DNA of 64,000 nucleotides from Lachnospiraceae bacterium MA2020 (lineage in GTDB: Bacteria > Bacillota > Clostridia > Lachnospirales > Lachnospiraceae): the NCBI GenBank assembly GCA_000746015.1, contig JQKK01000006.1:124001-188000 (forward strand). The letters run 5' to 3'. Below are positions 30,493-49,628 of this stretch, piece after piece. The notes under the pieces were generated by a model. It saw only the letters and a program-made list of their open reading frames with translations, ran no database searches and was not told the DNA's origin. Positions within the stretch are counted from its first letter, which is position 1, and every line of letters begins with the position of its first letter. The position numbers and the translations under genes were made by a program.

Positions 30493-30518
30493 CATAAAAC
30501 CTATACATAATATAACAA

Positions 30519-30630
30519 TTCTTCTTCCATCCAGACTATACTGTCGGTCCCGGAATCTCACCGGAGTCATGCGCTCTCACGCTAGCGGACTATACCGCCG
30601 ATCGGGAATTTCACCCTGCCCTGAAGACCT
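30519..30630 (-). promoter_or_regulatory. FMN riboswitch (RFN element)
   Basis: On the minus strand the conserved RFN segments appear in order: TTCAGGGCAGGGTGAAATTC, CGGCGGTATAGTCC, GCGAGAGC-type hairpin (GTGAGAGCGCATGACTCCGG), TGAGATTCCGGGACCGACAG and TATAGTCTGGATGGAAGAAG. FMN binding is expected to favour the downstream terminator and shut off ribDEBAH. Confidence 0.96.
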
Positions 30631-30669
30631 ATTTACTTTGTACTACCGAAAATTAGCATAACATCATTT

Positions 30670-37746: not shown

Positions 37747-37778
37747 AATACCTTCTCCCAATAATCAAATTCTGTTGA

Positions 37779-38138
37779 TTATGAAAATTTCTTTTTCAAT
37801 GCTATCTCTGTTGGTATAATCGTCCCTACCAGTAATACTACTTGAACCATAACTATATAGAAACTAACCATCCCAATCCTATCTTCATCACTAGAAATAA
37901 AAGGTATCAAAACCAATAACGACGGTAACAATGATATAAGTCCTAGCCTATACCACAAACGACCACAATACTCATTTCCAAATTTCCAAGTATCAGCATT
38001 TCTCATAGACCTTTTAGTTCTATACCCTATTATTGCATTTATTTCTTTTGGATAGTGTTTCCACATAAACCTCCCCAGAATTATCATAAGAACAGGTGTT
38101 AAGCAATTACATACCATCATAAAACCCCAAAACCACAT
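37779..38138 (-). CDS. SdpI-like small membrane protein
   Basis: 119 residues, ATG with GGAGG 7 nt upstream. Three hydrophobic segments with the SdpI/YhfL-type motif KEINAIIGYRTKRSMRN and TWKFGNEYCGRLWYRLG, known from the SdpI immunity protein family. The C-terminal part VVLLVGTIIPTEIALKKKF occurs again as a gene remnant at 39826-39900. Monocistronic; could protect against a membrane-active peptide, but no toxin is nearby. Confidence 0.75.
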   Translation of the reverse strand: MWFWGFMMVCNCLTPVLMIILGRFMWKHYPKEINAIIGYRTKRSMRNADTWKFGNEYCGRLWYRLGLISLLPSLLVLIPFISSDEDRIGMVSFYIVMVQVVLLVGTIIPTEIALKKKFS

Positions 38139-39786: not shown

Positions 39787-39825
39787 CTTCTTTAACCTTT
39801 CTTCCCGGTGATCAAAATTTGTTGA

Positions 39826-39900
39826 TTACGAAAATTTCTTTTTCAATGCTATCTTTGTTGGTATAATCGTTCCTACCAGTAATACTACTTGAACCATAAC
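39826..39900 (-). pseudogene. C-terminal remnant of a second SdpI-like gene
   Basis: The frame encodes VMVQVVLLVGTIIPTKIALK and the stop, almost identical to the end of the SdpI-like protein at 37779. DNA similarity extends past the stop on both sides (roughly 39795-39900 against 37745-37852, including GAAAATTTCTTTTTCAATGC). Upstream the similarity ends abruptly at the repeat copy beginning at 39902, so the gene was cut there. Confidence 0.7.
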
Positions 39901-39901
39901 T

Positions 39902-40070
39902 AAAAACAAAAAAGCCAAGCTCAACGCTCGGCTTGTAGCAATTGCGAAATAATTATCTCTTTGATAACGATTAATGCTTCGAAAGTGCCGTATTTTCAGC
40001 ATTTTCAAGTCAAGTTGCTGTTTACCTGTTGTGTACGGTAGAAAGCTCAGGGCTACTGTGCACAACTGAT
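39902..40070. repeat. Structured repeat, copy A
   Basis: Contains a terminator-like hairpin AGCCAAGC/GCTCGGCT (39913-39933, minus-strand U-run TTTTTTGTTTTT) and a 14-bp hairpin 40028-40041 with 40053-40066, loop AAAGCTCAGGG. The arms are GTTGTGTACGGTAG and CTACTGTGCACAAC. See copies at 43351 and 47593. Two base pairs differ from copy C by matched changes on both arms. Lies downstream of the LuxR-type gene. Confidence 0.8.
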
Positions 40071-40149
40071 TGCATATTCATCAAACTTTCCGCTTGATGA
40101 GGCTCTTTTCACTATATCAGTTACAAAACACTTCTAGCTTAAAATACAT

Positions 40150-40389
40150 TCAGTCCTGATTATTTACAAACAATTCCTGGAATTCCTTTCTTCCCGGAAC
40201 CCACGCTTTCTCATAAATATGCGTAAAATGATTCTTAACAGTCTGCTCCGATATTCCAAGCATATATGCTATTCTTCTATTTGAAAAACCGGACACCTTC
40301 AGAAAGCCCAGCTCCAGCTCACGTCTAGTAAAGCTGTATTTCTGAGCAACTTTGAGATACTGCTGTTTTGTTATCTCATTTTTCGTCAT
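40150..40389 (-). CDS. Small LuxR-type helix-turn-helix protein
   Basis: 79 residues. The start overlaps the preceding stop as ATGA. Nearly the whole protein is a LuxR/NarL HTH: SFTRRELELGFLKVSGFSNR then RIAYMLGISEQTVKNHFTHI. No receiver or sensor domain is present, so it would be a single-domain DNA-binding protein controlled by another partner, plausibly the co-encoded membrane protein. Confidence 0.8.
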   Translation of the reverse strand: MTKNEITKQQYLKVAQKYSFTRRELELGFLKVSGFSNRRIAYMLGISEQTVKNHFTHIYEKAWVPGRKEFQELFVNNQD

Positions 40390-40859
40390 TCTCCCAGATC
40401 CATTTCTTCATTCATCTTCCGCTCTGCATTCAGCCTCAGTGGAAGAAGCAAAAACTCAATAATAACTGCATATAATCCGGCCAGAAAACAGACTGCCAAA
40501 TTGGGACCTATCGTATATGGATCGTCTAATCGTCCCATCAACAGAACTCCTGATATGATTATTGCAAAAAGAGCTGCATATATAGTAAGCTTCTGTGCCG
40601 CATCGACAGCGCCTATTATATTTTTCAGTTCTAGTAGCTTATAATCTCGTATCCCAACAGAAAATGACTTTACAAAATCTTTCCACTCTCCCATAATTAT
40701 CAGACCAGGGATAAACACTATCAGTATAAGGAATAATGATGGCAAATCCACAAACCATGCTACATCCGACAACTTAAATCCACATAAAACAATCTGACTC
40801 AAAAATACAGTAACAAATAATAACAATTCTCCAAGTATTACTGTGCGTATGTTCCTCAT
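40386..40859 (-). CDS. Reduced MotA/ExbB-like membrane protein
   Basis: 157 residues from the ATG with AAGGAGG 5 nt upstream; 34 codons of open frame in front have no ribosome binding site. Four hydrophobic segments. Two stretches resemble MotA: VDLPSLFLILIVFIPGLIIM with GEWKDFVKSFSVG, and ALFAIIISGVLLMGRLDD followed by YTIGPNLAVCFLAGLYAVII. The cytoplasmic domain between helices 2 and 3 is very short. It could be a minimal channel or a sensor that holds the LuxR-like protein; I do not recognise a named family. Translationally coupled with the LuxR-type gene. Confidence 0.6.
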   Translation of the reverse strand: MRNIRTVILGELLLFVTVFLSQIVLCGFKLSDVAWFVDLPSLFLILIVFIPGLIIMGEWKDFVKSFSVGIRDYKLLELKNIIGAVDAAQKLTIYAALFAIIISGVLLMGRLDDPYTIGPNLAVCFLAGLYAVIIEFLLLPLRLNAERKMNEEMDLGE

Positions 40860-41072
40860 AGGCGCCTCCTTTGTAAATGTCTTGATCTGCAGGTATCTTA
40901 ATATGACAATATCATATATATCACTCAAAAAATATAGTACCTTTTGATGCAAAGCACTCACCCTACATCATCTGATTGATTTATATGTGACAGCCTTCTT
41001 GTAGTTCTAAGTGCTTTGTTTTAGACATTTGTAGGAATTAAGGGTGAGCCGTTTTTATATTTATCTTCGGGT

Positions 41073-41630
41073 TTAATACACAACTATACCTATTGCTGCC
41101 GCAATACAAATCAATACGATTGGTGATATCCCAAATTTAACTATTTTCCTGGAACCAAAGTAAACAGCAACCAAAACAAGGCATACCACTACTGATTTTA
41201 TATCTGGAGAAACTAATTTTTCCTTTATAACTGTATTTTGCATGATCATGCTGAAACCCATTGCCAGGATTATCCCCATGATACATGGTTTCAATCCTCT
41301 TAGTACTGCCTGTGCATAGGGATTTTTTAACAATCCTTTCATCATGATCATTATAAGTATGATAATCACAAACGCAGGAAGGACAACTGAAAATGTTGCA
41401 ATCAAAGCCCCGGGAATCCCTGCCGTCATGCTGCCCACATATGTTGCCATGTTGACCATTATAGGTCCGGGGGTACTTTCGCTTACAGCAATCATATAGG
41501 CAAGCTGTTCATCATTGATCCAGCCATAATGCAATACCACATCTCTAATAAGCGGTATTGCCGCGTAAGCTCCGCCGAACGAAAATAAGCCAACCTTCAG
41601 AAATCCAAGGAAGAGATCAATATATATCAT
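41073..41630 (-). CDS. Chromate transporter (half-size, ChrA family)
   Basis: 185 residues. One ChrA domain with LFSFGGAYAAIPLIRDVVL near 15-30 and SESTPGPIMVNMATYVGSM near 50-70. Half-size ChrA proteins work in pairs of opposite orientation, as here with the gene upstream; the ATG overlaps its stop (ATGA). Expected to move chromate or sulfate-like anions across the membrane; resistance not shown. Confidence 0.9.
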   Translation of the reverse strand: MIYIDLFLGFLKVGLFSFGGAYAAIPLIRDVVLHYGWINDEQLAYMIAVSESTPGPIMVNMATYVGSMTAGIPGALIATFSVVLPAFVIIILIMIMMKGLLKNPYAQAVLRGLKPCIMGIILAMGFSMIMQNTVIKEKLVSPDIKSVVVCLVLVAVYFGSRKIVKFGISPIVLICIAAAIGIVVY

Positions 41631-42211
41631 AAGTTCTGTCCCTCCCTTTTCATATTATTGCTGACACAAAATGCTATAAGGCTGCAAAGACCCGCTGCAA
41701 CCATCAAAGTTATTGATGATATCTTTATCGAGAAAAGATTTACAGCCATCATAATAAGAAAAACCGTTGTCAATACAGTCATCTGAAACGGTTTCTTCGG
41801 CATCTTTGCTATCATCTTAAATGCTGCATCTAATATAAGTATGCCTACGGCAATCTTTATCCCCTTAAATGCACTGGCTATCCAATCAATTTCGAGAAAG
41901 CTGTCAAGGAACAATGAGATCAGATAGATAATAATAAATGACGGAAGAATTACTCCTACTGTTGCAGCAATCGCTCCTGCAATTCCCCTCATCTTATATC
42001 CCACATAAGTTGCACAGTTTATCGCGATCGGACCAGGTGTTGATTCAGCAATGACTGTGATATCCATCATCTCATCGTGGCTGATCCACTTTTTCTTTTC
42101 CACACAGATATCCTGTATCAGTGAAATCATGGCATAACCGCCGCCAAAAGTAAAAAGTCCGATTCTTGCAAACGTACAGAAAAGTTCAATGACCACATTT
42201 TTCTCCTTCAT
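41627..42211 (-). CDS. Chromate transporter (half-size, ChrA family)
   Basis: 194 residues. Partner of the downstream half transporter: LFTFGGGYAMISLIQDICV and AESTPGPIAINCATYVGYK carry the same family motifs. About five hydrophobic segments. Starts within the stop of the acetyltransferase gene (4-nt overlap), so the three genes are probably one transcript. Confidence 0.9.
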   Translation of the reverse strand: MKEKNVVIELFCTFARIGLFTFGGGYAMISLIQDICVEKKKWISHDEMMDITVIAESTPGPIAINCATYVGYKMRGIAGAIAATVGVILPSFIIIYLISLFLDSFLEIDWIASAFKGIKIAVGILILDAAFKMIAKMPKKPFQMTVLTTVFLIMMAVNLFSIKISSITLMVAAGLCSLIAFCVSNNMKREGQNL

Positions 42212-42738
42212 ACAGCAGTAGCCTCTTCACGAAAGATTACCGATACATGAGTGATCTTATTATCAGGATCTGCATATTCCTTCTCAAAATGCATACCTAT
42301 AGATTCTGCAGTCTTATAGGAACCGACATTTGTATATTTACAATATGAATAGAGTGCGGGATAATCCGTCTTGGCAAAAGCCCAGTCACGGACAGCGGCG
42401 GCTGCTTCTTTGGCATAGCCTTGCCGCTGCAGATCTGCACGTATGTGATAACCAATCTCGGGCAGCATTTCACCCTCAATATTCTGAAGTGTCAATCCGC
42501 AGTCTCCGATCATCTCTCCGGTATTTTTCAAGCATACAGCCCACAGTCCAAAACCATTATCACGGTAGCGGTTCATGTTTCTTTCAATCCAGCTTCTAAC
42601 CCTTTCCTCGTCAAAAATATAAGGATAATGCTGCATAATATTTGTGTCAGCAAGGACCTTGTACAATGCGTCAAAGTCGTCCATATTCATTTCGCGCAGA
42701 AACAGCCTGTCTGTTTCCAATATATTTTTTTGTTCCAT
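42208..42738 (-). CDS. RimJ/RimL-type GNAT N-acetyltransferase
   Basis: 176 residues, ATG with AGGAGAAGG upstream. Starts LETDRLFLREMNMDDFDAL, has the acetyl-CoA loop IRADLQRQGYAKEAAAAVRD (near 110-125) and the closing segment YTNVGSYKTAESIGMHFEKE. This subgroup acetylates N-termini or small amines; the target is unknown. First gene of the operon with the two ChrA halves. Confidence 0.88.
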   Translation of the reverse strand: MEQKNILETDRLFLREMNMDDFDALYKVLADTNIMQHYPYIFDEERVRSWIERNMNRYRDNGFGLWAVCLKNTGEMIGDCGLTLQNIEGEMLPEIGYHIRADLQRQGYAKEAAAAVRDWAFAKTDYPALYSYCKYTNVGSYKTAESIGMHFEKEYADPDNKITHVSVIFREEATAV

Positions 42739-42940: not shown

Positions 42941-42990
42941 ACAAAAGCTGATAACCCCTGCGTTATTTACTCGCAGAAGTCATCAGCTTT
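42940..42990 (-). terminator. Terminator after the MetE-family remnant
   Basis: AAAGCTGAT and ATCAGCTTT as outer arms, CTGCG and CGCAG inside; on the minus strand TTTTGTGTTTTG follows. It lies 38 nt beyond the remnant's stop codon. Confidence 0.7.
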
Positions 42991-43027
42991 AATAAGCGGT
43001 TCAAGTAATAATTACTTAGGGAGAACT

Positions 43028-43297
43028 TCATTCCCAAACTTCTTCAGCTATCTCTTTCACAAGTTTAAGTTTTGCCCACTGTTCTTCTTCTGTAAGCTTA
43101 TTGCCAATCTCACATGAAGCAAATCCACACTGTGGACTGAGGCACAGTCTATCAATTGGAACATACTTTGCTGCTTCATGAATTCTCTCAATAATTATCT
43201 GCTTATCCTCAAGCTTCGAAGACTTTGTTGTAATAAGACCAAGAACAACTTTCTTATCCTCTGAAATCTTGGAAAGTGGTGCAAATCTGAGCCTGTT
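43028..43297 (-). pseudogene. C-terminal fragment of a MetE-family (YxjG/YxjH-like) methionine synthase
   Basis: About 89 codons open from an in-frame TAG (43298) to the TGA at 43028: RLRFAPLSKISEDKKVVLGL, then DRLCLSPQCGFASCEIGNKL near the end. The SPQCGF segment carries the zinc-binding Cys of cobalamin-independent methionine synthase relatives. The full protein is about 370 residues, so three quarters at the N-terminal side are missing. The breakpoint at about 43298 adjoins repeat copy B. Confidence 0.85.
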
Positions 43298-43350: not shown

Positions 43351-43492
43351 AAAAAAGACCCGGTACTATTTGTACCAAGTCTTCTGAAATCTGCATCCAT
43401 ATTTTTACAAAAACTCATCTCTATGTTTCTCAATGTTTACTCGCTGTTTACCTGCTGCGTACGGTAGAAAGCTCAGGGCTACTGTATGTGGC
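43351..43492. repeat. Structured repeat, copy B
   Basis: Terminator-like hairpin GACCCGGTAC/GTACCAAGTC (43357-43381, best pairing on the minus strand, followed there by TTTTTTG) and the 14-bp hairpin 43454-43467 with 43479-43492, loop AAAGCTCAGGG. Arms are GCTGCGTACGGTAG and CTACTGTATGTGGC. The segment AGTCTTCTGAAATCTGCA is shared with copy C. Lies directly downstream of the tannase-like gene. Confidence 0.8.
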
Positions 43493-43520
43493 TGATAGCA
43501 ATTCTATTATTTCTTTAATT

Positions 43521-45437
43521 CTATTCCAAAGCAACACACTCATTTACCCATGCAATAAAGTTGCTTGTCGAATCACCACTTCTCTCTGCCATCGTATGTT
43601 CCTGCCCCCATACAAAGCTATAATCAACATTCGATCCATAATTCTGAAGGGCAAGTACAAGATTTGCTTCTGTATTTACAGCTGTGTCACTCTGCCAAAT
43701 TCCTGTGTTTATCCTGAAAAATTTAGCTACATTTGAGGTCTGATATCCTTCAGAGCCTGAAAGCAGATAGTACAAAGGAGAATACATGTTAATCCTGTAA
43801 TCCACAGTATGTCCTACAGAATCCTCTTTTGTAAGATCTTCCTCGTAATCCGACGCATATGCAGATCCTATCTCTGAAAGGATTGAAGCAAGTGTGGAGT
43901 CGAAGTGTGCACCTTCACCGTCTCCATATCCGAAAAGAGTGTTTTCCCCCTGTGTCCCGTCGAGCTGATCAAAGGCAGCAATCCCTTTTGATGCAGTTTT
44001 TACTGCCTCTGCAAAATCAGATATGCTTGTGATCTCAGCTGTATTTGTAGACTCATCATATTCAACCCATGTTCCATTGGCGTTTAATGCGTCTATGTAA
44101 TCCTGTACAGTCTCAAATGTTCCGGATATGTTAACCCCTGAATTATTCTCTGTTCTGGAAATGTCATCTATTGTAGTAAAGTCTACCTCGCCACCTTCTG
44201 TATTTCCTCCGGCAGCTGCATTTTCGCCCATCTGCCCCGGTACTCCTTCAGGCATCTCTCCGGTAAAACCTTCTCCGTTGCCATCCGGTCTTCCACCGCC
44301 AAATCCACTGTTCTCACCATCAGGCCGACCGCCTCCATGACCATGTCCGCCTCCCATGCCTCCGAATCCTCCGGAAGCGCTGGATGAATCATATGGGAAT
44401 GTGGTGTCAGCAAGGAAGTTATTAAGGGATTCCTCTATGACACTTACCATATATTCATAGTATGTTCCCGACTGGTATCTTCCATCCTCACTTTCTTCCA
44501 GCGTAAGGGTATTTCCTTCACTGTCTGTCAGTCCCAGACTGTTTATATATTCGGCATAGGCCACCGTAAGGCTGTCAGAGACACTCTGTTCTTCATCTGT
44601 AAGATCTGATCTTGTTGTTCCCATCATCCACTCATATGCTTCATCTGCTGAATCAAGGGATGTTATAGGGCACCATGCCTGAGAACCAAGAACCGAATCG
44701 CTTACTCCCTGGACAGCGCCTATTGCCTCAAGATAATCATCATAGAGTTCCGAATCACCAGTCACACCAAGAAGTGCTGACTGTGCCCCACCGCCTGACA
44801 TCCCAAATGTGAAGATGCTATCAACGTCTCCAGCAATATTCCCGTCATTATACCTTATATAACGTATGGCTGCCTTAAGGTCTGTGACTCCCGCAGGCGC
44901 ACCGGCATCACGTCCCCTGCAGCCTGCATGAACATATATGAACCCTGCATCTGTATAATCTGAGACACTGCTGTACTCTGTCATAGGGGACTGTGCTGCA
45001 TATCCGGGAGTATTTACAGGAAATACTATAGGCGCGGTTTCAGCCGTATAGCAATTTATTTCCGCAGCTGTATTCAGCGTACATGTATAGGTGCCGTCGC
45101 CATTATCTGATGCATCCATATATGCCGCAGGAACTATAACCGCAAGCTCCTCATAATCTATATCCGCAGGATTCTCGCAGTACTGTATTCCGAGCTGGTA
45201 GTACACATTATCCTCTTCATTATACTGCCATTTTGAGTTGTCAATTTGGGGCAGGTTCGTCACTATATCCTGCACCTCCGTAATACCTGTATCTGTGGCA
45301 CTTTTAGCAGCTTCATCTGTACTTTTGCTCTCTGGCACTGCATTTACGGCCGTATCTGATGTTGCCGCGCTTCCGCATGCTGTAAGCGCCATTGTAGTTC
45401 CAATAATAAGTGCTAATATATTTTTTCTTCTGATCAT
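43521..45437 (-). CDS. Tannase-like alpha/beta hydrolase lipoprotein with glycine-rich insert
   Basis: 638 residues, ATG with GGAGG 8 nt upstream. Lipoprotein signal with lipobox LTAC (Cys21). The esterase domain has the nucleophile Ser214 in FGMSGGGAQSALLG, an Asp in WQSDTAV (about 581) and a His in VWGQEHTMAE (about 614), which fits bacterial tannase (tannin acyl hydrolase). Residues about 353-416 are a Gly-rich insert (GGMGGGHGHGGGRPDG pattern) that separates the two halves. Acts outside the cell, anchored to the membrane. Lies 127 nt after a two-component system that may control it. Substrate (gallate ester or other ester) is inference. Confidence 0.8.
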   Translation of the reverse strand: MIRRKNILALIIGTTMALTACGSAATSDTAVNAVPESKSTDEAAKSATDTGITEVQDIVTNLPQIDNSKWQYNEEDNVYYQLGIQYCENPADIDYEELAVIVPAAYMDASDNGDGTYTCTLNTAAEINCYTAETAPIVFPVNTPGYAAQSPMTEYSSVSDYTDAGFIYVHAGCRGRDAGAPAGVTDLKAAIRYIRYNDGNIAGDVDSIFTFGMSGGGAQSALLGVTGDSELYDDYLEAIGAVQGVSDSVLGSQAWCPITSLDSADEAYEWMMGTTRSDLTDEEQSVSDSLTVAYAEYINSLGLTDSEGNTLTLEESEDGRYQSGTYYEYMVSVIEESLNNFLADTTFPYDSSSASGGFGGMGGGHGHGGGRPDGENSGFGGGRPDGNGEGFTGEMPEGVPGQMGENAAAGGNTEGGEVDFTTIDDISRTENNSGVNISGTFETVQDYIDALNANGTWVEYDESTNTAEITSISDFAEAVKTASKGIAAFDQLDGTQGENTLFGYGDGEGAHFDSTLASILSEIGSAYASDYEEDLTKEDSVGHTVDYRINMYSPLYYLLSGSEGYQTSNVAKFFRINTGIWQSDTAVNTEANLVLALQNYGSNVDYSFVWGQEHTMAERSGDSTSNFIAWVNECVALE

Positions 45438-45564
45438 TGTTGTTTCCTCCTGAAACGCTAATTCAATATAACCAAGGTGTTATATGCTTTTTATCTGACA
45501 TGCATATAATAAACAATGAAACTTGAAGAAAGCTTGAAGGTTTTTTTAAGAATTTATAACCTGC

Positions 45565-46833
45565 TCATTTCAGAGTTGGAATCCTGACTATAAATGTTGT
45601 AATTCCCTTATCACATTCCACACTGATTTCACCGTCATGGGCTGTCACAACAGCCTTTGCTATTGCGAGTCCAAGCCCGTAATGTCCATTAAGTTCCCTG
45701 GATGAGTCCGTTCTGTAAAATCGCTCAAATATCCTGTCCCTATCCTCTGCAGGAATCTCTTTTCCCGGATTGGATACTTTAAGCACAGCACATTGATTCT
45801 CTTCATGGAGAGTGACTAAAATCTTACCAGTACTTTCATTTGTATTTTGTTTTTTTTCAGCATGTGAAACAGCATTGTCCAAAAGTGTCGCGACCAACTG
45901 TCCCAACTGGTTAGGATCCCCTTCCAAATGGATATCCTGTTCAATATCACTCTCCAGAAGCAGGTCTCTCTCGAAAGCAGCCGAGTCAAAAGGCAGTATC
46001 CCGCCTGTAACGATTCTCGAAAAATCTACATCTTCATGTACCAACTCTACATTCTCTGTTCTTGAAAGTTCAAGAAGTCCTGTCACAAGCTCTTTCATGC
46101 GCTGGTTCTCATAAAGAATATTGTCAAGCCACCTGTTATTTCCAATCTCGCGCTGCAAAATCTCCGCATTGGCATTTACCGTTGATATAGGAGTTTTCAA
46201 CTCATGTCCTGCATCGGAGATAAACTGTTTCTGCTTCTGATATGTATCTTCGACAGGTTTCATTATCTCCTTGGATGCCTTCAAAGAAACAAAGAACAGT
46301 ATTATCAGGGCAACAGCACCAAATACAACTGTATTCATAATGAGTGTTTTCATACTGCTGTCTACCCGGGTATTATCCATCATTACCACGTAGATTCTCC
46401 CTGATGATTCATCTGAAGCGATACGATATATCATCCTTCCGCTTATTCCGCTTGCTTTCCCATCTGTTATAAGCCGCAAGGCAAGATTTTTTAGTTCTTC
46501 ATCGGTCATTACAGGCTTAACATCATTCATCACTCCAATAGCACTTCCATCAGAAGAAAATTCCGCAAGATACATGACTGCCGACTCCGCGGCAATCCTG
46601 TCTTCTGGAATCCCTGCCGCATCTTTCGGAGCTTCCTTGGGGCCATTTCCCTTGATGTAATCATCAAGAAAGATTTCAAGGATTCTTTGATTATTCCTGT
46701 ATACTGCACTGTAAGTTGTAAGTGAAATAGTCAAAAGAGTTCCTAAAAGAATCAGTGCAAGGAGCCCCATTATCGTAGCTGTGATCTTATTTTGTGAAGC
46801 CTTAAAAAGTCTGTTTCCAAGCTTTTTTGCCAT
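45565..46833 (-). CDS. Sensor histidine kinase
   Basis: 422 residues, ATG with AGGGG 5 nt upstream, 2 nt after the regulator stop. Two TM helices (about 18-40 and 166-188) enclose an extracellular sensor of about 125 residues. The cytoplasmic part has the H-box FISDAGHELKTPISTVNANA, N-box ATLLDNAVSHAEK and G-box YGLGLAIAKAVVTAHDG. HisKA-type kinase; the signal is unknown. Pairs with the OmpR-type regulator. Confidence 0.93.
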   Translation of the reverse strand: MAKKLGNRLFKASQNKITATIMGLLALILLGTLLTISLTTYSAVYRNNQRILEIFLDDYIKGNGPKEAPKDAAGIPEDRIAAESAVMYLAEFSSDGSAIGVMNDVKPVMTDEELKNLALRLITDGKASGISGRMIYRIASDESSGRIYVVMMDNTRVDSSMKTLIMNTVVFGAVALIILFFVSLKASKEIMKPVEDTYQKQKQFISDAGHELKTPISTVNANAEILQREIGNNRWLDNILYENQRMKELVTGLLELSRTENVELVHEDVDFSRIVTGGILPFDSAAFERDLLLESDIEQDIHLEGDPNQLGQLVATLLDNAVSHAEKKQNTNESTGKILVTLHEENQCAVLKVSNPGKEIPAEDRDRIFERFYRTDSSRELNGHYGLGLAIAKAVVTAHDGEISVECDKGITTFIVRIPTLK

Positions 46834-46835
46834 TC

Positions 46836-47525
46836 CTACCCCTTCTTTCGCAGTTCATATCCAAGACCGCGCACCGCCTTTATCTCCATAATTGAAGCCA
46901 AGAACTGAAGCTTTTTTCTGGTAAAAGAGATATAGACCTCCACGTTGTTATACTCAGCTTCATTGTCAAATCCCCATACCTTAACAGCGAGCTGCTCCTT
47001 TCCGATAATAGTCCCTTCATTTGCAAGGAATATCTCCATGATATGCAGTTCTTTTTCTGACAGACGTATATCCATGCCATTTTCAGTATTTATAAGCATT
47101 GATTTATTTCTATCCAGTTTAAGGTCTCCGGAAACAAGATTTCCGGTATCATCTGTCTTCTGTATGTTATTCCTGCGAAGCAGAGCTCTTACCCTTGCAA
47201 GCAGCTCTTTTGTCTCAAAGGGCTTTGTCAGGTAATCATCTGCTCCGCTATCCAGACCGCTCACTTTATCATCAGTATCTGACCTAGCAGTGAGCATTAA
47301 GATTGGAGTCTGTATGCCTTCTTTTCTCACAGTTCTGGCTATGTCAAATCCATTTATGCCAGGGAGCATGACATCAAGAATAAGCAGATCATATATGCCG
47401 CTTCTTGCCGCATCAAGTCCGCTTATTCCATCTAAAAATGCATCTGTATCATATTTTTCCTGCCTGAGGATTTCACATAACGCCTCGGACATTCTATTTT
47501 CATCTTCAACAAGCAATAGTTTCAT
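46836..47525 (-). CDS. OmpR-family response regulator
   Basis: 229 residues, ATG with GAGG 8 nt upstream. Receiver domain with the acidic pocket VEDENR, phospho-acceptor Asp in LLILDVMLPG, and Lys in DDYLTKPFETKELLARV; C-terminal winged-helix DNA-binding domain ending AVRGLGYELRKKG. Upstream of its kinase and of the tannase-like gene on the same strand; regulates them or unlinked genes. Confidence 0.95.
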   Translation of the reverse strand: MKLLLVEDENRMSEALCEILRQEKYDTDAFLDGISGLDAARSGIYDLLILDVMLPGINGFDIARTVRKEGIQTPILMLTARSDTDDKVSGLDSGADDYLTKPFETKELLARVRALLRRNNIQKTDDTGNLVSGDLKLDRNKSMLINTENGMDIRLSEKELHIMEIFLANEGTIIGKEQLAVKVWGFDNEAEYNNVEVYISFTRKKLQFLASIMEIKAVRGLGYELRKKG

Positions 47526-47978
47526 GGAATACCTCTTTAGATATTTTTATATCTCTATTGTACCAAAATATCCTTGAAGAAATATTGAAGTTCAAAAAAA
47601 ACTCGGTACAAATGTACCGAGTCTTCTGAAATCTGCAACGCAGATTGATTCACCGGGGCACTCTCGCACATAGTGCTCGAATACGTGCCCGTAAAACATC
47701 CAAAGGGATGTTTTACCTCTTTGAGAACTTTTTCACTGCCTTAAGTGCTGTGTTTGTGGCATTTTCAGGACAAGTTGCTGTTTACCTGCTGCGTACGGTA
47801 GAAAGCTCAGGGCTACTGTATGCGGCTGGTGGCAACTTTAATAACTGCGATCAAAAATAATACTCTGATTTTACTTTCTACTCATTAAATCTTTGTCTGT
47901 CTTTTGTAAGATTATCTTCTGATATAACGTGCTAACATCTCCTCCCGGTAAATTAGAAGTTGTCGATGTCTTTTAACA
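47526..47978. other. 453-nt gap: structured repeat copy C and no gene
   Basis: Holds repeat copy C (47593-47838) and AT-rich flanks. On the minus strand 47871-47969 is open with a frame containing NLPGGDVSTLYQKIILQKTD, but it has no start codon or recognised homologue. No promoter or RNA gene other than the repeat is recognised. Confidence 0.55.
47593..47838. repeat. Structured repeat, copy C (longest)
   Basis: Five hairpins in 246 nt: ACTCGGTAC/GTACCGAGT (47601-47622, minus-strand U-run TTTTTTTT), ATCTGC/GCAGAT (47631-47645), GGGGCAC/GTGCCC (47655-47690), GTAAAACATCC/GGATGTTTTAC (47691-47716), and the conserved 14-bp hairpin 47788-47801 with 47813-47826, loop AAAGCTCAGGG, enclosed by AAGTTGC/GCAACTT. 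Arms GCTGCGTACGGTAG and CTACTGTATGCGGC. Copies A and B lack the middle hairpins. Confidence 0.85.
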
Positions 47979-48695
47979 CTACAAATTCATTCCAACTAAA
48001 AATAAACCTGATATTACTAAAAGAACTATAACAATCTTTTTTACAATTCTTTCATCCAAGACTTTTGAACTCTTCATTCCAGCAAACAATCCAATAATCA
48101 TGAACGGAATAAGGGTTGCTGCTTGTTTCAATGAATCAAGCGTAAATACTCCAAGCAAATAATATGTAAAAATTCTTACTGTATTTTCAACAATAAAAAC
48201 CGCGCTTATATTGGCTTTAAATTCATCCGTTGTAGTAGTCACTCGCCCAACATAGGCAGCAAGCAACGCTCCTATCCCAAACAATCCACATAAGATGCCA
48301 GATAGTACGCCAATGATGCACAATATAATATTTGAATCCTTTGCATTTGTACATTGATATTCTCTAAAAAATATTTCAACAGCAATAAGAATAACAACGA
48401 TTCCAAAGAACACTTTTAAATATTTAACATCAACACTCTTTAAAAGTATTGCCCCAGGGATACTACCACCTAGAACCAACAATGCTAAAGGAATATAGAC
48501 TTTTTTATCAAGTTTTTTACGATTATTCCAAGTCAATATTAGATTTGTCGGGTATCCAAGTAATAATTCCACTGGAGATATATTAACGTTTGCCACTCCA
48601 AATCCTAAAATAGATGTAAAGACTAGTGTATTTGCAAAACCACAAAGTCCCTTTATAAAAAAAGCACATAGCGTGGCAATTATCCACAAAGTCAA
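47979..48695 (-). CDS. TSUP-family (TauE/SafE) transporter
   Basis: 238 residues. Start is TTG preceded by GGGGGG at 9 nt; no ATG precedes TM1. Eight hydrophobic segments with the TSUP features FIKGLCGFANTLVF at the N-terminus, IPGAILLKSVDVKYLKVFFG near 85-105, and GVLSGILCGLFGIGALLAAY near 135. Such proteins export sulfite or organosulfonates; the substrate here is unknown. The upstream motif at 48711 is shared with the PanE-like gene. Confidence 0.85.
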   Translation of the reverse strand: MTLWIIATLCAFFIKGLCGFANTLVFTSILGFGVANVNISPVELLLGYPTNLILTWNNRKKLDKKVYIPLALLVLGGSIPGAILLKSVDVKYLKVFFGIVVILIAVEIFFREYQCTNAKDSNIILCIIGVLSGILCGLFGIGALLAAYVGRVTTTTDEFKANISAVFIVENTVRIFTYYLLGVFTLDSLKQAATLIPFMIIGLFAGMKSSKVLDERIVKKIVIVLLVISGLFLVGMNL

Positions 48696-48863: not shown

Positions 48864-48894
48864 GCCTATTGCACTATCAGTTATTCATCTCTCA

Positions 48895-49043
48895 GGTCTT
48901 AGATTATTCCTATTAAGATTAGGGACTTGTTGCTCTTTTCTCTGATCAACTATTGCCTGGCTTTCTCTTAGCTTTTGTAAAAGACTTGTCCTAGCCTTTT
49001 CAGCTATCTCAGGTTTCTTAGTCCTGTCCGAGGCTGAATACAA
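48895..49043 (-). pseudogene. Coding-like fragment, unknown origin
   Basis: A 49-codon open frame ending TGA at 48895, reading SDRTKKPEIAEKARTSLLQK then LRESQAIVDQRKEQQVPNL. Charged, Glu/Lys/Gln-rich, with normal codon use, so it was probably coding; it lacks a start with a ribosome binding site. It resembles C-terminal ends of mobilisation-type proteins only in composition, so no family is claimed. Confidence 0.4.
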
Positions 49044-49061
49044 TTATAGATAAAAGAAAAA

Positions 49062-49086
49062 CCCCAGAAACACTGAGTTTCTGAGG
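49062..49086 (-). terminator. Second terminator downstream of rpsI
   Basis: CCCCAGAAAC and GTTTCTGAGG with a TGA-type short loop, followed by TTTTTCTTTT on the minus strand. Confidence 0.75.
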
Positions 49087-49149
49087 TAAGCAACGAGCCA
49101 CTTCGATTTCGCTTCGCTCCATCTCAGTCGCGACAGTCGTCGCGAAAAA

Positions 49150-49192: not shown

Positions 49193-49229
49193 ATTTTTCG
49201 ATTTTTTGTGCCTCGTTGTTTCGCGAAGA

Positions 49230-49628
49230 TTATCTCTTTGAGAACTGTGGAGCACGACGTGCGGCTTTGAGACCGTACTTCTTTCTCTCCTTCATTCTTG
49301 GATCACGTGTAAGGAATCCTTCCTTCTTGAGAACTGGTCTGTACTCAGCATCAACCTCAAGGAGGGCACGTGAGATACCGTGACGGATAGCACCAGCCTG
49401 ACCTGTGTATCCACCGCCATATACGTTAACGAGAACATCAAATCTGCCCTCTGTCTGTGTTGCAACGAGTGGCTGACGAACGATCATCTTGAGTGTCTCA
49501 AGACCGAAATACTCGTCAATGCTCTTCTTATTTATCTTGATTTCACCATTTCCAGGTACGAGATATACTCTAGCTACAGAGCTCTTTCTTCTACCTGTTC
49601 CGTAAAACTTATTTGCTACTTTAGCCAA
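49230..49628 (-). CDS. rpsI: 30S ribosomal protein S9
   Basis: 132 residues, TTG start with GGAGG 8 nt upstream. Typical S9: [36 protein letters not shown] and the C-terminal tail [11 protein letters not shown] that reaches the P-site tRNA. Second gene of the L13-S9 operon. The rare start codon may limit its translation relative to rplM. Confidence 0.97.

Follow-up and report, generated by a model that had tools for sequence, protein, structure and literature searches.

Known elements at rpsI and integron arrays

Streptococci carry rpsI-targeted ICEs and IMEs, such as IMESag-rpsI with its MobV relaxase, which accrete in tandem and leave decayed CIMEs (PMC5704250, PMC5357655), and the McRImecD islands at rpsI in Macrococcus are resistance islands of 16-18 kb (PMC5341023). 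The locus analyzed here lies in a 64,000-nucleotide stretch of DNA from Lachnospiraceae bacterium MA2020 (the window), and holds three hairpins that are predicted to be DNA recombination sites, the far-end sites of small mobile gene cassettes. Compared by description, it resembles the streptococcal elements in its tyrosine integrase, the rpsI 3' end, a Mob-type relaxase and tandem arrays with decayed members; with McRImecD it shares a tyrosine integrase at the rpsI 3' end and direct-repeat att sites. Unlike the streptococcal elements, 90 of 94 left ends here lack two arm-repeat units, and the cassettes, down to ~1 kb in length, share one conserved hairpin-type site; unlike the 16-18 kb resistance islands, the units form arrays of small cassettes. 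Since rpsI accretion with CIMEs in streptococci and rpsI islands in Macrococcus have been described, the kind of system is already known. The part that we consider new is the restriction of the arm repeats to the right end in most cassettes, an integron-like property.

The arrays also recall integron cassette arrays (attC, IntI) and their integrase-less form (CALIN): they occupy one locus in one orientation, the site lies 3' of the gene, arrays occur without an integrase, and the sites contain inverted repeats. Unlike in integrons, the target is a gene end, and the integrase scores 20.2 bits with the IntI profile, whose cut-off is 265; since this is far below the cut-off, the system is not an integron. 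The ends of integron attC sites are RYYYAAC and GTTRRRY. Neither type of end occurs in our alignment of unique sites, where the polarity is GTTGC...GCAAC, and an attC identity was rejected on both counts. Among the matches listed from a search of the open-licence literature, no paper dealt with rpsI cassette arrays in Butyrivibrio or relatives, which is a weak negative.

The rpsI locus in the window

The three hairpin copies reported in the first-pass annotation are real, sharing an identical 27-nt centre (GTACGGTAGAAAGCTCAGGGCTACTGT) on the plus strand from positions 40033, 43459 and 47793. As had been noted, each comes after minus-strand genes and has terminator-like hairpins on its low-coordinate side. 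All three lie in the same orientation 1.4-9.2 kb downstream of rpsI, and they are the only copies in the 3.72-Mb genome at E ≤ 0.001 (two extra matches at E 0.97 are noise). The element is larger than claimed: beyond the hairpin it takes in a second inverted repeat and reaches an att core. In copy C, hairpin 1, with its conserved loop motif and inverted arm-type repeats, occupies 47773-47837 and the second inverted repeat fills the hairpin-to-core interval at 47734-47772 (neither has an assigned strand), followed by the att core at 47711-47729 on the minus strand, with 3 mismatches to AGTTCTCAAAGAGATAATC. Copy A (39951-40077) has the same layout: hairpin 1 at 40013-40077 and the second inverted repeat at 39974-40012, again with no strand, and a minus-strand core at 39951-39969, also with 3 mismatches to the same sequence. 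In the site alignment, copy B consists of hairpin 1 alone (43439-43503, no strand), fused to arm-like repeats, with neither a second inverted repeat nor an att core.

The rpsI gene itself (ribosomal protein S9) is a minus-strand ORF at 49230-49628, and is the conserved anchor of the arrays in relatives. Its 3' end is the putative target (attB) of the elements, and an exact match to the core AGTTCTCAAAGAGATAATC lies there at 49228-49246 on the minus strand, on the attL side. Next to it, also on the minus strand, is a remnant of the left-end terminator region of a mobilizable element (~49034-49087, bounds by eye), a sequence likewise found after rpsI in four relatives (G004, G023, G030 and G199). 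It is followed at 48888-49028 by the last 47 residues of a Mob_Pre relaxase (minus strand, 91% identical by tblastn). These two remnants appear to be all that is left of the mobilizable element in the window, its integrase having apparently been lost. The window genome has no close homologue of that integrase; it encodes seven other phage-type integrases, one of them ~57 kb from the array. The terminators beside the hairpins resemble those directly after rpsI in relatives, and form part of the next cassette's left end.

Anatomy and distribution of the site

Comparison across genomes defines the anatomy, spacing and location of the site. Read in the sense of rpsI (minus in the window), an intact site consists of the hairpin (loop CCCTGAGCTTT, 11-bp arm repeats), the second short inverted repeat and a copy of the rpsI 3' end (AGTTCTCAAAGAGATAATC). 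Accepting up to 6 mismatches in 19, this core is present in 98 of the 115 unique sites whose flank is 115 nt or longer (6 more of the 121 unique sites have less than 115 nt downstream and were left uncounted), and in 96 of those 98 it lies exactly 63 bp after the 27-nt centre. It is absent from 17 of the 115, of which at least one is a chance match in a Mob gene.

The hairpin centre recurs far beyond chance, with exact 19-nt matches in 79 stretches of the named genome collection (~66 assemblies by contig-prefix count). Many of these contigs are drafts or MAGs. The stretches are titled Lachnospiraceae, including Butyrivibrio, Pseudobutyrivibrio, Oribacterium and Agathobacter. The exceptions are three MAGs under the titles Aeriscardovia, Ruminococcus and Paenibacillaceae, plus one entry labelled just Clostridiales; the other-family titles are probably binning errors. 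Site matches were found in 12 of 48 genomes of the genus (E ≤ 0.001) and in 16 of 397 genomes of the family sample (E ≤ 1e-4). Ten of the 27 sites in the genus set are not placeable, being on contigs other than that of rpsI; the 17 on the rpsI contig are all downstream of rpsI, at 1.4 to 25 kb and in one orientation. In 76 of 82 assignable cases, the gene preceding the site shares the strand of rpsI; this count derives from 111 sites (89 with the gene on the rpsI strand, 6 with it on the other, 16 where no ORF of 80 aa was present), reduced to 98 (76, 6 and 16) by dropping 13 rows from stretches of G-numbered genomes, some of which repeat named contigs.

The site has no blastn match in the phage and plasmid collections (E 1e-5) and its 19-nt centre no exact match in the viral contigs, so a phage or plasmid origin was rejected. 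A dispersed REP-type repeat was rejected as well, since the three copies share one locus, in contrast to the many dispersed copies of REP / RAYT systems. The earlier suggestion of a mobile DNA hairpin element holds as regards mobile DNA, and can be narrowed to a mobile-DNA attachment site.

The integrase element in relatives

In G004, G023, G030 and G199, rpsI is followed by genes for an integrase, an HTH protein, an AAA_25 ATPase, a small protein and a Mob_Pre relaxase, then by cargo and the first hairpin (Pfam names from the G023 proteins). The integrase is a 350-aa tyrosine recombinase on the strand opposite to rpsI, and the same integrase adjoins rpsI in G029; the integrase gene of these relatives is thus next to the target gene, and direct-repeat att cores bound each unit, as in an IME/CIME accretion array. 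The relaxase is Mob_Pre by Pfam and scores 40 bits with the MobV model, under its cut-off of 100. Close homologues of the integrase (at least 99% identical) occur in 4 of the 48 genus genomes and none in 44, with a 30% match in G006. Related integrases (E ≤ 1e-60) are encoded in 36 of the 397 family genomes, and rpsI is within the fetched flank at 23 of 34 integrase loci; among the remaining 11, several are truncated by a contig end.

Very probably, then, the hairpin element serves as the right-end attachment site, made up of arm repeats and core, for elements whose site-specific integration takes place at the 3' end of rpsI, and the best reading of the array is accretion of such elements, reduced to integron-like cassettes. 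The tyrosine integrase of an autonomous mobilizable element that also encodes HTH, AAA ATPase and Mob relaxase proteins would recombine a circular element through the core AGTTCTCAAAGAGATAATC on the circle and the same sequence at the rpsI end. Insertion would keep rpsI intact and supply a new terminator; the newest element would adjoin rpsI, with older ones pushed outward. Repeated insertion and loss of the integrase would then leave a co-oriented array in which each gene block retains a right-end site only, as in the window. That this integrase is the agent, and that integrase-less cassettes move in trans, we infer, as we do the insertion order and the role of the motif and hairpin discussed below.

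Two observations concern other arrangements at rpsI. In G391 (L208, G391:C1:430000-449999), two integrases of the rpsI-element family lie ~11 kb apart, the first beside rpsI, and are possibly two autonomous elements in tandem. At five loci (L156, L157, L164, L166 and L169) a different insert follows the rpsI stop, starting TAAGGATTA.CTGCGAAT; that of L157 ends in ATTCGCAGATAATC, as though placed within the core end.

Structure and sequence conservation of the hairpin

The inverted repeat is real, as 90.5% of cells pair across 28 diverse sites, compared with 23-45% in slid controls (the alignment comprises 21 representatives and 7 hand-picked sites, four of the latter, L070, L089, L120 and L008, being one base off). 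The first-pass annotation had held that pairing, not sequence, is conserved. This is not borne out by the 28 sites: both sides change in 2 of 29 pairs, compared with a shuffled mean of 3.0, and the covariation score is 0.130 versus 0.125 when shuffled, with 76 of 500 shuffles reaching the observed value. The sole suggestive measure of covariation is the number of cells changed on both sides (9 versus 4.5 shuffled; reached in 9 of 500).

These data bear on a structure-specific recombination, in which the folded plus strand is the substrate, as in integron attC, and the hairpin itself is selected. The high proportion of paired cells and the two compensated pairs are in its favor, as are the better folding of the plus strand (mean z -3.06 versus -1.65, 21 representatives) and the z values below -1 of the second inverted repeat (15 of 17 distinct repeats). 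We nevertheless regard it as unlikely. The covariation score is no higher than in shuffles, and the plus-strand bias comes from three near-fixed columns of mismatches (94 ungapped sites whose core lies at 63 bp). Covariation in the second inverted repeat is convincing by eye, yet was rejected on counting, the outer stem giving 5.30 versus 4.50 shuffled, a small excess.

A further point against it is that sequence is shared with right ends that mostly have no comparable hairpin. In four of five distant right ends (all except L222, which has no motif), a motif with at most two mismatches to AGCCCTGAG lies 75-105 bp before the core; one of the five, L210, has a hairpin of 7 bp. The shuffled mean is 0.48 and none of 2000 shuffles reaches four of five at two mismatches, for a motif that was chosen post hoc. 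The result for CCTGAG at one mismatch is weak (4 of 5 distant right ends, 106 of 2000 shuffles reach it). By reading, three 11-bp repeats (NNGTARRCAGC) stand beside the integrase on the element, and the hairpin has two similar 11-bp units on one arm and a degenerate inverted copy on the other; by reading, too, the repeats of other integrase subgroups have other sequences and are found at both ends of the element. Because of the arm repeats and the presence of the motif in distant right ends mostly without a comparable hairpin, we interpret loop and arms as protein-binding sites. On the best reading, the hairpin consists of candidate protein-binding repeats of the 11-bp arm type, inverted around a conserved CCCTGAG.

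Exchange and transfer of cassettes

Comparison between genomes also shows units that run from core to core, exchange at their junctions and pass between hosts. Segments between sites range from 0.8 to 9.9 kb (40 closed segments, some double-counted as G-numbered stretches repeating named contigs). One three-gene segment of 3.1 kb, encoding an AraC-type regulator, a DUF1349 protein and an MFS transporter, is 98.5-99.7% identical from core to core in L046, L050, L073 and L120; a fifth copy (L064) stops just short of the hairpin and a sixth (L052) is cut by the locus end. It adjoins rpsI in L050 and the site of another cassette in L120 and L064, and the rpsI-element integrase was not found in L046, L050 or L120 (within up to 8 kb at each locus). 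The three host pairs measured have rpoB identities of 74.9% (L050-L120), 76.5% (L050-L052) and 76.8% (L052-L120); the L046 genome gave no rpoB match. Similarly, the side of a LysR/YeiH cargo is 97.9-100% identical in seven loci, with compared host rpoB pairs at 74.7-77.8%, and this cargo sits on the integrase element in G004, G023 and G030.

In 44 comparisons, the same cassette start abuts rpsI in one of the two genomes and a hairpin site in the other, the switch falling 10-18 bp before the core end. For 47 site pairs that have the gene side in common and differ on the far side, the point of divergence is the core in 24, the hairpin in 13 and another place in 10 (pairs in both sets of comparisons are not independent). 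The core is therefore not the sole exchange point, and the 13 divergences make the hairpin a second one, which a single crossover at the core leaves unexplained; the divergences would follow from recombination between neighbouring hairpins.

It is highly improbable that ordinary homologous recombination between repeats reshuffles the arrays with no site-specific recombination at all, even though these 13 pairs diverge in the conserved hairpin and 44 of the 48 genus genomes have no close integrase homologue. Distant hosts carry the 3.1-kb unit from core to core beside different neighbours, the switch points fall in the last 10-18 bp of the core, a short stretch for homologous recombination, and intact integrase elements occupy the rpsI end of arrays.

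At least two arm repeats occur in just 4 of 94 distinct left ends, so most cassettes have them at the right end only. All four exceptions adjoin rpsI (L126, L136, the L130/L058 group and L110); the integrase is intact in L126, L136 and L130, internally deleted in L058 and was not seen in L110. With slightly more doubt than conviction, we propose an integron-like gene-capture platform of rumen Lachnospiraceae, with a separate origin from rpsI-targeted mobilizable elements, in which integrase-less cassettes with one composite right-end site would be captured in trans, newest first, at a ribosomal-protein gene end, and shuttle between genera. Integrons are extremely rare in Firmicutes according to one report (PMC9024848); rumen Firmicutes would here have an integron-like array logic built on another recombinase system. 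As the site is conserved, cassettes can be found by pattern search, which makes it possible to map how small gene blocks move among rumen bacteria. A test of capture in trans needs just a single integrase, a 19-bp target and one ~140-bp site.

RNA and protein-coding readings

A structured RNA of the cassette transcripts (a 3'-UTR element or small RNA) can hardly be right: the site does follow the gene on its 3' side in 76 of 82 assignable instances and terminators come next, but nothing in Rfam matches it at gathering thresholds, covariation is no better than in shuffles, the better-folding strand is opposite to the genes and the site is tied to the rpsI-end copy. The small RNA family proposed in the first pass fails on the same grounds, with no Rfam family found (the search gave three other matches only, none covering the hairpin element), covariation not above shuffles and 98 of 115 sites tied to the rpsI-end copy at near-fixed spacing. 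Protein coding in the AVYLLRTVESSGLL frame, also raised at that stage, was rejected: of 94 unique sites, 45 have an in-frame stop within 137 nt, though only 3 have one inside the 22 codons of the hairpin, and substitutions are spread over the codon positions (97, 115 and 136).

Cassette cargo and other features of the window

All cargo genes of the window are on the minus strand. Cassette 1 carries a TauE/SafE-family permease (47979-48695, Pfam). Cassette 2 begins with a minus-strand left end at 47593-47710, made up of a palindromic insert (47641-47710) and an rpsI-type terminator (47593-47640). The insert, of ~70 bp at about 47641-47718 between att core and terminator, has a minus-sense fold of -31 kcal/mol; it is single-copy in the genome, and its start (CATCCCTTTGGATG) also follows cores in several relatives. 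The cargo ORFs of cassette 2 (43521-47525) encode a response regulator, a histidine kinase and a subtype A tannase, the two-component pair being named from sequence and the tannase by NCBIfam. The latter (43524-45437, minus strand, 721 bits) is a cassette cargo beside a two-component system. Cassette 3 (ORFs at 40150-42738) encodes acetyltransferase-like and chromate-transporter-like proteins, a 191-aa protein and a LuxR-type regulator (LuxR by Pfam, the others named from sequence).

A fluoride riboswitch (42967-43044, minus strand) lies in cassette 3 upstream of the acetyltransferase-like gene and two chromate-transporter-like genes, and an FMN riboswitch is present elsewhere in the window at 30515-30632 (minus strand). 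There is also a direct repeat of 115 bp (88%) at 37756-37870 and 39803-39917, the second copy being the 3' end of a 119-aa membrane-protein gene (37779-38138), a fragment beyond the core of copy A.
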